Source: Veillonella infantium
GTDB taxonomy: Bacteria; Bacillota; Negativicutes; Veillonellales; Veillonellaceae
NCBI RefSeq assembly: GCF_002959895.1
Contig: NZ_PPDD01000009.1
Location: forward strand, 124,001 to 188,000
Length of the DNA: 64,000 nucleotides
Direction of reading: 5' to 3'
Below, in pieces: positions 13,849 through 34,901 of the stretch. The translations under genes were made by a program, and so were the position numbers. Each line of letters begins with the position of its first letter. The stretch's first letter is position 1. The notes beneath the pieces are model-generated. The model was not told the origin of the DNA, did no database searches, and saw only the letters and a list, made by a program, of their open reading frames with translations.

Positions 13849-14865
13849 ATGACAACGGCATTAGCCACAATATTTGTATTTGGTTTAATCGTGTTTATTC
13901 ATGAATTAGGCCATTTCATTACAGCAAAAATGTCAGGTATGCAAGTAGACGAATTTGCCATTGGTTTTGGACCTGCCATATTCAAGGTTCAAAGAGGGGA
14001 AACTTTATACTCGATTCGTATCATTCCTCTTGGTGGATTTAATCGTATTGCAGGTATGACACCTGACGAGCCTCTTAATGAGCGTTCATTTTATACTAAA
14101 CCTGCATGGAAGAAATTTATTGTTATTTCTGCAGGTGCTGTATTTAATTTTTTATTGGCCATAGTTTTATTCTTTGGTCTCAATGCAACAGTAGGTAATC
14201 TCACGTATACAAATGATCCTGTTATTGGTAATATCATCCCAGGTAGCGCTGCTGAACAGGCACATTTACAATCTAACGATAGAATTCTTACCATCGATGG
14301 TAAAAAAATCTCTACATGGGATGAAATCCGTCCTAGCCTACAAGGTACTGCCAATCATGGTGTTACTGTTGTAGTAGATAGAGAAGGGGAAACTGTAGAA
14401 ACTACAGTGATTCCAAAAATGGAACAGGATAGTCCTAAAATTGGTATTTATCCTAGTTATACTCGAGAAACTTATAGTATTGGAGAATCTTTTAGTTTAG
14501 CCGTTACTCGCACAGGTCAAACAATTGTTGCTATGTTAAGTGGCTTATATGATATGATTCGAGGCACACAGGCAGCAGAGCTATCTGGCCCTGTAGGGAT
14601 TTCACAAATGGCTGGTACTATTGCACAATCTGGCTTTGCGCCACTATTAAGTTTTGCAGCATTTTTAAGTATTAACTTAGGGGTTATTAATCTTTTGCCA
14701 TTACCTGTATTAGATGGTGGTCATTTAATTATTATTTTGGCTGAAGCTATCACAGGTCGTAAGTTACCTGCTAAGGCACTTATGTATATTCAAATGGTTG
14801 GTGTTGCTTTGATGGTAGCATTATTCTTATATGTAACAACTCAGGATATATTCCGATTACTATAA
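13849..14865 (+). CDS. rseP: RIP zinc metalloprotease RseP (site-2 protease family)
   Basis: Intramembrane protease that cleaves membrane-bound anti-sigma factors and leftover signal peptides. In 338 residues the first TM helix holds the zinc motif 'HELGH' (about 18-22); a PDZ domain lies around residues 110-190 ('NIIPGSAAEQAHLQSNDRIL'); the C-terminal TM region has 'NLLPLPVLDGGHL' (about 281-293), whose Asp is the third zinc ligand. A longer frame begins inside dxr at 13804, but ATG 13849 with AGGAG six bases upstream is the likely start. It is sandwiched between dxr and ispG as in many bacteria. Confidence 0.94.
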   Translation: MTTALATIFVFGLIVFIHELGHFITAKMSGMQVDEFAIGFGPAIFKVQRGETLYSIRIIPLGGFNRIAGMTPDEPLNERSFYTKPAWKKFIVISAGAVFNFLLAIVLFFGLNATVGNLTYTNDPVIGNIIPGSAAEQAHLQSNDRILTIDGKKISTWDEIRPSLQGTANHGVTVVVDREGETVETTVIPKMEQDSPKIGIYPSYTRETYSIGESFSLAVTRTGQTIVAMLSGLYDMIRGTQAAELSGPVGISQMAGTIAQSGFAPLLSFAAFLSINLGVINLLPLPVLDGGHLIIILAEAITGRKLPAKALMYIQMVGVALMVALFLYVTTQDIFRLL

Positions 14866-32885: not shown

Positions 32886-33488
32886 ATGAAGACATCTGTT
32901 ATTTTACATGGTTTACATAACGAATTTACTTTAGATCAAATGAAGGCATGCATAGAATTAGCTGAAAAATATGGTGGATCTTTCCGCCATGTTGTAACAG
33001 GTATACAAATTACAGGTATTGAAAAAGACGATAAGGAACAACTTATCTCTGAATTACCAGAAGGTGTAACCACTGTTATTCATAGAGGTGTTAATTCCTT
33101 AATTGCTTGCGTAGGTAAAGGCTATTGTAAAAATGGCCAAATGGAAACTAAAGAATTGGCTGATTATGTAGAGAGAAAACATTACGGCCGAAAAACATCT
33201 CACAAGTGCAAAATTGGAATTAGTGGCTGTGGTCGTAACTGCCCGGATGCAATGGTAAAAGATATTGCTTTTATTGGTACATCCCAAGGTTTTATGCTGG
33301 CTGTTGGTGGCAATACAGGAATGCGACCAGAGGCTGGTAAAATATTGGCTAGAAAGCTTACTGTTGAGCAATCCAAAAAAGCTGTAGATATCTTAGTAGA
33401 TTGGTATGCAGAACATGGCGAGCCCCGTGAGCGTATGGGAAAATTATTAGAACGCCTAGGTAATCCCTTAGAAGGTGTAGAACTATAA
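32886..33488 (+). CDS. Compact nitrite/sulfite reductase-like siroheme and 4Fe-4S protein
   Basis: 200-residue protein corresponding to one repeat of the nitrite/sulfite reductase family. A ferredoxin-like half (about 1-62) precedes the siroheme/4Fe-4S domain. The cluster cysteines fit the family pattern C-x5-C...C-x3-C: C75 and C81 in 'IACVGKGYCKNG', C115 and C119 in 'ISGCGRNCPDAM'. C108 is extra. Full assimilatory enzymes are roughly 450-600 residues with two repeats, so this is a minimal form akin to small Dsr-like proteins of anaerobes. Its substrate is unknown. GAGGAGGAA lies 6-8 bases before ATG 32886. A non-coding stretch of almost 400 bases follows. Confidence 0.82.
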   Translation: MKTSVILHGLHNEFTLDQMKACIELAEKYGGSFRHVVTGIQITGIEKDDKEQLISELPEGVTTVIHRGVNSLIACVGKGYCKNGQMETKELADYVERKHYGRKTSHKCKIGISGCGRNCPDAMVKDIAFIGTSQGFMLAVGGNTGMRPEAGKILARKLTVEQSKKAVDILVDWYAEHGEPRERMGKLLERLGNPLEGVEL

Positions 33489-33596
33489 GTTGCTATATTT
33501 TTAGGGCTAATGGTTTTATAGTTCTTGATCTGTACGTTTATCTAGAGAGTGATTAGTTTTTCTCCAAATTTTAGTAACAATAAAATTATTACATAT

Positions 33597-33704
33597 AAAC
33601 ACTTATACTATTTTATGGTTTTAATAATAAAAATTTTATTAGACCATCATATTCTACTTTTTAGATTTTAGAATATGACATAAATGTAGATAGTATAAGT
33701 GTTT
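33597..33704 (+). other. Cloverleaf-like palindromic element upstream of hrcA
   Basis: A 15-bp perfect outer inverted repeat (AAACACTTATACTAT, 33597-33611, with its complement at 33690-33704; two more pairs inside) encloses three successive hairpins: ATGGT.../...ACCAT (33615-33647, extended by AT pairs with one bulge), CATATTCTA/TAGAATATG (33648-33677) and ACA-TAAA-TGT (33678-33687). A short T-run follows. It has none of the conserved tRNA sequences. Nearly every base of the 108 is in a stem or short loop, which suggests a small RNA, a large terminator or a miniature palindromic element. Confidence 0.6.
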
Positions 33705-33724
33705 TCTTATTATTACACTTTGAT

Positions 33725-33810
33725 TTTTTGACTAATTAATTTAAAATGTTCAATTGTCTTTTTGACTAAATAGATATTATTTGACTTTTTAAGGATTTTT
33801 TTGCTTGACA
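33725..33810 (+). repeat. Repeated TTGACT boxes upstream of hrcA
   Basis: TTGACT occurs at 33728-33733, 33762-33767 and 33781-33786, the first two within an identical TTTTTGACTAA 11-mer, followed by the likely hrcA -35 TTGACA at 33805-33810. No matching -10 boxes are seen for the first three. The remaining bases of the 33489-33884 intergenic region (apart from the cloverleaf, promoter and CIRCE) show nothing I can name. Confidence 0.5.
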
Positions 33811-33832
33811 ATTTTTTCCTATGTGATAATAT
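33805..33832 (+). promoter_or_regulatory. Housekeeping promoter of the hrcA operon
   Basis: Consensus -35 TTGACA (33805-33810) and a -10 in GATAATATTAT, best TAATAT at 33827-33832 with 16-base spacing. The CIRCE operator begins 12 bases downstream, so the transcript start would fall at or just before the operator, as in other HrcA-controlled operons. Confidence 0.7.
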
Positions 33833-33843
33833 TATACATGCGA

Positions 33844-33870
33844 TTAGCACTCAAAGTTTATGAGTGCTAA
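33844..33870 (+). promoter_or_regulatory. CIRCE operator (HrcA binding site)
   Basis: TTAGCACTC (33844-33852), nine-base spacer, GAGTGCTAA (33862-33870): an exact match to the canonical CIRCE inverted repeat. HrcA repressor binds it until heat shock titrates GroEL. It directly precedes hrcA and overlaps the predicted start of transcription. Confidence 0.98.
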
Positions 33871-33884
33871 CAAGAGGTGTCATT

Positions 33885-34901
33885 ATGGATGAAAGAAAAC
33901 AGCGCATCTTGCGAGCCATAATTGAAGACTACGTTAAATCTGCTGAACCTGTAGGTTCCAGGACGATTGCAAAGAATTATAATCTTGGTATTAGTCCTGC
34001 AACAGTAAGAAATGAAATGTCCGATTTAGAGGAGTTAGGCTATTTGGAGCAACCTCATACATCGGCGGGACGTATTCCTTCAGCTAAAGGCTATCGCTTA
34101 TATGTTGATTCTATGTTGAGTCAACAACCTGTTCCATTACAGGATGCTGAGAAAATTGAAATGTTATGGAAACATTCTAATGGATCTACCAGTGAGCTCT
34201 TCTTAAATATGGCTAAATTATTATCACAAGTGAGCCATAGTATGAGTCTGTTCTTAGCTCCAGCCCATGATAGAGCATTAATTAAATACATTCATGTATT
34301 ACCGCTAGATTCACATCAAGCTGTCATGGTTGTTATTACTGAGACTGGTGCTCTTGATAATGAATTAATGTACTTTACTGAAGGGGTTTCGCCTGATGTA
34401 TTACAAAGTTTAGCTATGCAATTTAGCAATGCTTTACAGAATATAGGTATTGGTCATGTAACGGCTGAAGCGTTAGGAACACTATTGATTCATATGGAAG
34501 GTCCACAAGGGATTTTGATGATCCTTTCAGAAACATTATTACGAGCAATTAATAAACGTAAGTTGTTCTATTCTGTAGGTACCACAGAGTTGTTAAATCA
34601 ACCAGAGTTTAAGTCTGTTGAAAAGGTACAACCCTTACTTTCATTAGTGGAAGAACAAAATCAATTGGGGCAACTATTAAAAGATGATTCACCTACACCT
34701 GTAAAGGTAAAGATTGGCAATGAAAATGATACCGAAGCACTTCAATCGATGAGTGTAGTACAAGCTGATTTTACAAATCAAGATCAACCTATCGGTACTC
34801 TTGCTATTCTAGGACCGACACGAATGGAATATGGTCGTATCATTGGCATGTTGTCTCATATGAAACATATAATGGAATCTATGGTAAAAGAACAAAAATA
34901 G
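33885..34901 (+). CDS. hrcA: Heat-inducible transcription repressor HrcA
   Basis: HrcA represses heat-shock operons through CIRCE. The 338 residues have an N-terminal winged helix ('ERKQRILRAIIEDYVKSAEP', 'SPATVRNEMSDLEELGYL', 'QPHTSAGRIPSAKGYRLYVD'), a GAF-like core and the C-terminal 'GTLAILGPTRMEYGRII'. A GTG at 33864 would place the start inside the CIRCE; ATG 33885 with AGAGGTG upstream is preferred. It is the first gene of the autoregulated hrcA-grpE-dnaK-dnaJ operon. Confidence 0.96.
   Translation: MDERKQRILRAIIEDYVKSAEPVGSRTIAKNYNLGISPATVRNEMSDLEELGYLEQPHTSAGRIPSAKGYRLYVDSMLSQQPVPLQDAEKIEMLWKHSNGSTSELFLNMAKLLSQVSHSMSLFLAPAHDRALIKYIHVLPLDSHQAVMVVITETGALDNELMYFTEGVSPDVLQSLAMQFSNALQNIGIGHVTAEALGTLLIHMEGPQGILMILSETLLRAINKRKLFYSVGTTELLNQPEFKSVEKVQPLLSLVEEQNQLGQLLKDDSPTPVKVKIGNENDTEALQSMSVVQADFTNQDQPIGTLAILGPTRMEYGRIIGMLSHMKHIMESMVKEQK

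Follow-up and report, generated by a model that had tools for sequence, protein, structure and literature searches.

A branched RNA stem between the lepA-hemW-nir genes and hrcA of Veillonella is very probably a non-canonical terminator

The window analysed here, a stretch of 64,000 nucleotides, belongs to Veillonella, and its nearest named relative in the genome set is Veillonella sp. T11011-6 (G002), which is 97% identical over the gap considered below. In this region lepA, hemW and a small gene with a NIR_SIR domain are followed by hrcA with its CIRCE operator and then by grpE, dnaK and dnaJ, the last three being named by the translations of their ORFs and not by family search. All of these genes lie on the + strand. 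Between the stop of the NIR_SIR-domain gene and the hrcA ATG is a gap of 396 bases (33489-33884), and within it, about 109 nt after the stop, begins a palindromic element of 108 bases (33597-33704). The element thus stands at the border of two co-directional gene runs, which are taken to be operons. The first-pass annotation had put it in a gap of about 400 bases, about 100 bases before a heat-shock promoter, and both distances proved correct (Table 1). The mechanically called hrcA ORF begins at a GTG (33864) within CIRCE, and the likely ATG is preceded by AGAGGTG.

Table 1. Features of the gap upstream of hrcA and of its flanking genes (window coordinates)
Feature	Position	Strand	Basis or remark
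Upstream gene with NIR_SIR 4Fe-4S domain, last in the lepA-hemW-nir run	32886..33488	+	
5' arm of outer stem, AAACACTTATACTATTT	33597..33613	+	Fold; 81-100% identity, 8 orthologs
First interior hairpin	33614..33647	+	Fold (hairpin 33615-33647); retained in five parvula-group sequences
Second interior hairpin	33648..33677	+	Fold; one pair with a compensated U-A to A-U change
Marginal third 3-bp hairpin or junction linker	33678..33687	+	In the MFE structure, absent from the centroid
3' arm of outer stem, AGATAGTATAAGTGTTT	33688..33704	+	Fold; 3' arm and tail 96-100% identity, 8 orthologs
U-tract TTTTCTTATT, predicted RNA release region	33702..33711	+	Invariant in 8/8 aligned orthologs
hrcA promoter, TTGACA-16-TAATAT	33805..33832	+	Downstream of the element; -35 box about 100 nt after it
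CIRCE operator, TTAGCACTC-N9-GAGTGCTAA	33844..33870	+	Read in the sequence; pattern match
hrcA	33885..34901	+	ATG at 33885 the likely start

The arms of the element (33597-33611 and 33690-33704, 15 nt each) are 100% complementary and 78 nt apart, and RNA folding extends the outer stem to 17 bp (33597-33613/33688-33704), as had been proposed. The three consecutive hairpins described inside it stand in part: two are robust, and the third is a marginal leaf of 3 bp that is absent from the centroid and lost in most orthologs. The outer stem is poor in G-C pairs (3/15), its 5' arm has an A-run that pairs with the Us at the start of the U-tract, and the U-tract itself is interrupted (8 U in 10). The minimum free energy of the element is -32.6 kcal/mol compared with -14.2 +/- 2.6 in dinucleotide shuffles (z -6.97), and none of 200 shuffles was as good. 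The structure is therefore not a product of chance, and the suggestion of an accidental AT-rich inverted repeat was discarded. A known structured RNA or a tRNA was also considered and rejected, since covariance models gave no Rfam family at gathering score and ARAGORN found no tRNA, in agreement with the lack of tRNA landmarks reported before.

Searches for copies in the window's own genome and across the genus used the DNA sequence, the pattern of the arms and a covariance model. In its own genome the element occurs once, and it is orthologous in 9 of the 14 Veillonella genomes, including V. parvula SKV38 (G007), its near relative G009, V. rogosae (G003) and V. denticariosi (G008). It lies every time between the NIR_SIR-domain gene and hrcA and nowhere else, so the further copies that had been thought worth looking for came down to one true locus per genome. 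Secondary covariance-model matches elsewhere were weak (E 6e-4 to 0.8, 41-82 nt); at these lengths none was a full copy. The other five Veillonella genomes carry unrelated hairpins followed by T-runs at the same place. These are simple in G001, G004, V. tobetsuensis (G006) and V. atypica (G013); the replacement in G005 is a different nested stem, AACTAAGGAGTATAG...CTATATTTCTTAGTTTTT. Stable hairpins with T-runs are also found just upstream of the hrcA promoter in another genus of the family (L015, L017, L018).

The two parts of the element have evolved differently. The arms and the U-tract are 81-100% identical across eight orthologs. Between the window and V. rogosae the arms and T-tract are 100% identical, against 53% at the fourfold sites of the upstream gene, and in the V. 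denticariosi pair (G008, G010) the arms are 81-96% identical against 36% at those sites. For these more distant species (fourfold identity 0.36-0.53), identity to the window is 45-59% in the interior and 19-38% in the upstream flank. On these comparisons the arms are under purifying selection, and their sequence is conserved more strictly than pairing alone requires. The interior of about 75 nt has been replaced between clades, with two hairpins in the parvula group and a single long hairpin in V. rogosae and the V. denticariosi pair; it nevertheless folds in 7/7 tested sequences (z -3.5 to -5.0). Covariation, which had been proposed as a check, thus gave a divided answer. The near-invariance of the arms leaves it weak in the outer stem (one pair compensated; 67 of 500 shuffles did as well), but the retention of the fold despite wholesale replacement of the interior is strong evidence. 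The compensated pair is a change from A-U to C-G in G010 alone; in its sister G008 a single base bulges out at this point.

The folding energies differ according to the molecule considered. The energy of the sense RNA is nearly constant (-32 to -36 kcal/mol) in eight distinct element sequences, and the unrelated stem of G005 reaches -29. Antisense RNA is weaker in 9/9 sequences (-18 to -31), and the DNA hairpins range from -8 to -23; the nine sequences compared are related and do not represent nine independent tests. This difference agrees with the presence of G-U pairs (2-8 per sequence), which only the sense transcript can form. The constant stability of the sense RNA speaks for an RNA transcribed from the upstream operon rather than to a DNA cruciform or an antisense RNA.

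We consider it very probable that the element is a branched, non-canonical Rho-independent terminator that closes the lepA-hemW-nir transcript and shields the hrcA-grpE-dnaK-dnaJ operon, which is under HrcA/CIRCE control, from read-through. This reading is carried by the observed structure, conservation pattern, strand preference, position, replacement in sister species and genome-wide class in V. parvula. As in other Rho-independent terminators, a stable stem on the coding strand is directly followed by a U-rich tract (the 17-bp stem ends at 33704 and the tract spans 33702-33711), the 5' flank is rich in A, and sister species carry other terminator-like hairpins in its stead. The position is also that of an operon end, after the last gene and in the same orientation, upstream of the hrcA promoter, and it is the same in nine genomes. 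Textbook terminators, however, have a G-C-rich stem, and the A+T-rich stem and the interrupted U-tract of the element are the main reservations against this reading. The conservation of the arms beyond what pairing requires and the weak covariation of the outer stem also count against it. Instead of the canonical short loop (3-13 nt), its stem of 15-17 bp surrounds 74-78 nt that fold independently; hence the term branched and non-canonical. A short loop and a G-C-rich stem mark the canonical form on which prediction programs rely; they do not belong to the mechanism itself.

We infer the actual stop of RNA polymerase and the order of folding as follows. During transcription the two interior hairpins would fold first and draw the 5' arm near the 3' arm as this emerges; the outer stem of 17 bp would then zip against the U-tract (UUUUCUUAUU) and release the RNA. 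Function would reside in the arms and the U-tract, which are conserved; the interior, which would have only to fold compactly, would be free to change in sequence. A simple terminator scan missed the element because its loop limit was 8. Rules of the TransTermHP type allow loops of 3-13 nt and stem-loops of up to 59 nt, and the median terminator loop in the study that gives them is 4 nt (PMC12207403); such predictors would therefore miss the element, and nested sites like it, as wholes. A search of a limited collection of papers found no RNA-seq or term-seq map of transcript ends for Veillonella and no paper on branched terminators.

Oversized stems of this kind are numerous in V. parvula. The whole genome of V. 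parvula SKV38 was surveyed for perfect arms of at least 11 bp with a T-rich tail, with one dinucleotide shuffle of the genome as control and ORFs called by a simple length rule instead of a gene finder. The survey gave 191 sites with loops of up to 12 nt, 46 with 13-24, 43 with 25-50 and 20 with 51-150; the shuffle gave 1, 0, 3 and 3 in the same classes. Stems with interiors of more than 24 nt and a T-tail thus number 63 versus about 6 in the shuffle. Forty-eight of them (36 + 12) are intergenic: 15 convergent, 31 co-directional, 1 divergent and 1 without a class. Where co-directional sites have the tail on one strand only, it runs along the gene direction in 14 and against it in 4. This orientation pattern is the signature of terminators. 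The first-pass annotation had allowed for a terminator but found the element too elaborate for one; the former is now the best-supported reading, and the objection did not hold, as oversized nested stems with a U-tract are common at V. parvula gene ends.

Folding of 41% of the surveyed interiors beats shuffles by more than 2 SD, and at a second nested site (G007 1461660) the arms are kept and the folded interior drifts in V. rogosae and G012. These nested sites share with the hrcA element the perfect arms, an often folded interior, the T-tail, the intergenic position and the rarity of divergent settings. They differ in that most interiors are 25-50 nt long and the stems are richer in G-C, and the hrcA element is among the largest and most A+T-rich of the class. 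As for other families, 240 kb of one G+C-richer genome (G032) gave one site at 51-150 nt and two at 25-50. We tentatively raise the possibility that branched, nested intrinsic terminators form a class spread over the whole genome in Veillonella, with about 60 candidate sites in V. parvula (interiors of more than 24 nt); conservation would be confined to the arms and the U-tract. The interiors would evolve freely and sometimes hold mobile-element ends, current predictors would miss the class, and some members may be subject to regulation or serve additionally as stable 3'UTR RNAs.

Several nested sites of V. parvula (G007 14313-14393, 249044-249124, 419538-419635 and 1603283-1603363) have inner palindromes within unrelated outer arms, either TGAACTG..CCAAAAATTG..CAATTTTTGG..CAGTTCA or TGATATGTACCCC...GGGGACATATCA. 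We take these to resemble the ends of the IS3/IS150 group, as though terminator loops had taken in the ends of mobile elements. The same genome also has two very large intergenic folds of 150-170 nt (293708-293880 and 2145405-2145557; MFE about -68 and -71 kcal/mol) that gave no Rfam match at gathering score and are possibly unclassified structured RNAs.

Among other explanations, the element might form a stable 3' terminus on the lepA-hemW-nir mRNA and in addition serve as a 3'UTR-derived small RNA, either directly or after processing, its branched fold blocking 3' exonucleases or offering a binding surface. This is compatible with termination at the U-tract, and the sense-strand fold kept in all orthologs and an arm conservation in excess of pairing needs speak for it. 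It is nonetheless unlikely, for the interior, where a seed would be expected, is replaced between clades, and the hairpins that five Veillonella species carry in this place are unrelated to the element. A separate small RNA gene under its own promoter, one of the earlier suggestions, would suit the strong fold, the isolated position in the gap and the upstream space available in the window. However, the 5' arm begins just 24 nt after the stop codon in G008 and G010, too close to accommodate a promoter, and a scan of the window's + strand between the NIR_SIR-domain gene and the element gave no sigma-70-like match scoring 9/12 or better. These two facts make such a gene very unlikely; the poor conservation of the upstream gap in more distant species also counts against it, and no conserved upstream promoter of its own was found.

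Action at the level of DNA, either as a cruciform, another of the earlier suggestions, or as a two-part operator with a regulator of hrcA bound to its symmetric arms, was suggested by the near-invariant, perfect inverted repeats that precede the hrcA promoter by about 100 bp. We regard it as extremely unlikely. Stability is conserved for the sense RNA through G-U pairs and not for DNA or the antisense strand, although a cruciform calls for stable hairpins on both strands. The five sister species without the arms retain hrcA, CIRCE and the TTTTTGACTAA motif, and the arm motif does not recur elsewhere in the genus above the level of a reversed control. The size and inverted-repeat form of the element, together with the IS-end-like palindromes in the loops of other nested V. 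parvula stems, recall a miniature mobile element, which the first-pass annotation had also proposed. REP/BIME, BOX and MITE palindromes are likewise intergenic and about 100 nt long, but they form dispersed multi-copy families, in contrast to a single-copy element at one orthologous locus in nine genomes; MITE or REP identity was rejected for lack of dispersed copies. With purifying selection on the arms, no match in phages and a single partial, weak match in plasmids (a C. difficile plasmid, 40% cover, E 8e-3), the mobile-element reading is close to refuted.

Some further observations concern the control of hrcA. The motif TTTGATTTTTTGACTAA/TTGTCTTTTTGACTAA lies at 33719-33735 and 33754-33769 of the window and is present in tandem (1-3 copies) in the interval that separates the hrcA promoter from the element or whatever replaces it (L003-L022). 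The last copy lies about 36 nt upstream of the -35 box and is shared by several genera of the family. V. parvula has TTTTTGACTAA at four places, two of them at the hrcA locus and two with no nearby downstream ORF. The motif may be a site for an unrecognised regulator of the hrcA operon; it does not fit the spacing of the CtsR consensus. A simple pattern search of the whole V. parvula genome (G007) found no canonical CtsR box. Only two perfect CIRCE operators are present in that genome (1006888-1006914 and 1167560-1167586), of which one precedes hrcA and the other lies elsewhere, presumably at groES.

If the element is, as we think, a branched terminator, it shows that a simple operon boundary can take the form of an intricate palindrome. 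The element belongs to an ordinary kind, and its large nested form, common to dozens of V. parvula sites, is of modest interest. Terminators in this genus can carry folded interiors of 25-100 nt that standard predictors discard. Operon maps of Veillonella would therefore miss boundaries such as the one that protects the heat-shock operon from read-through.
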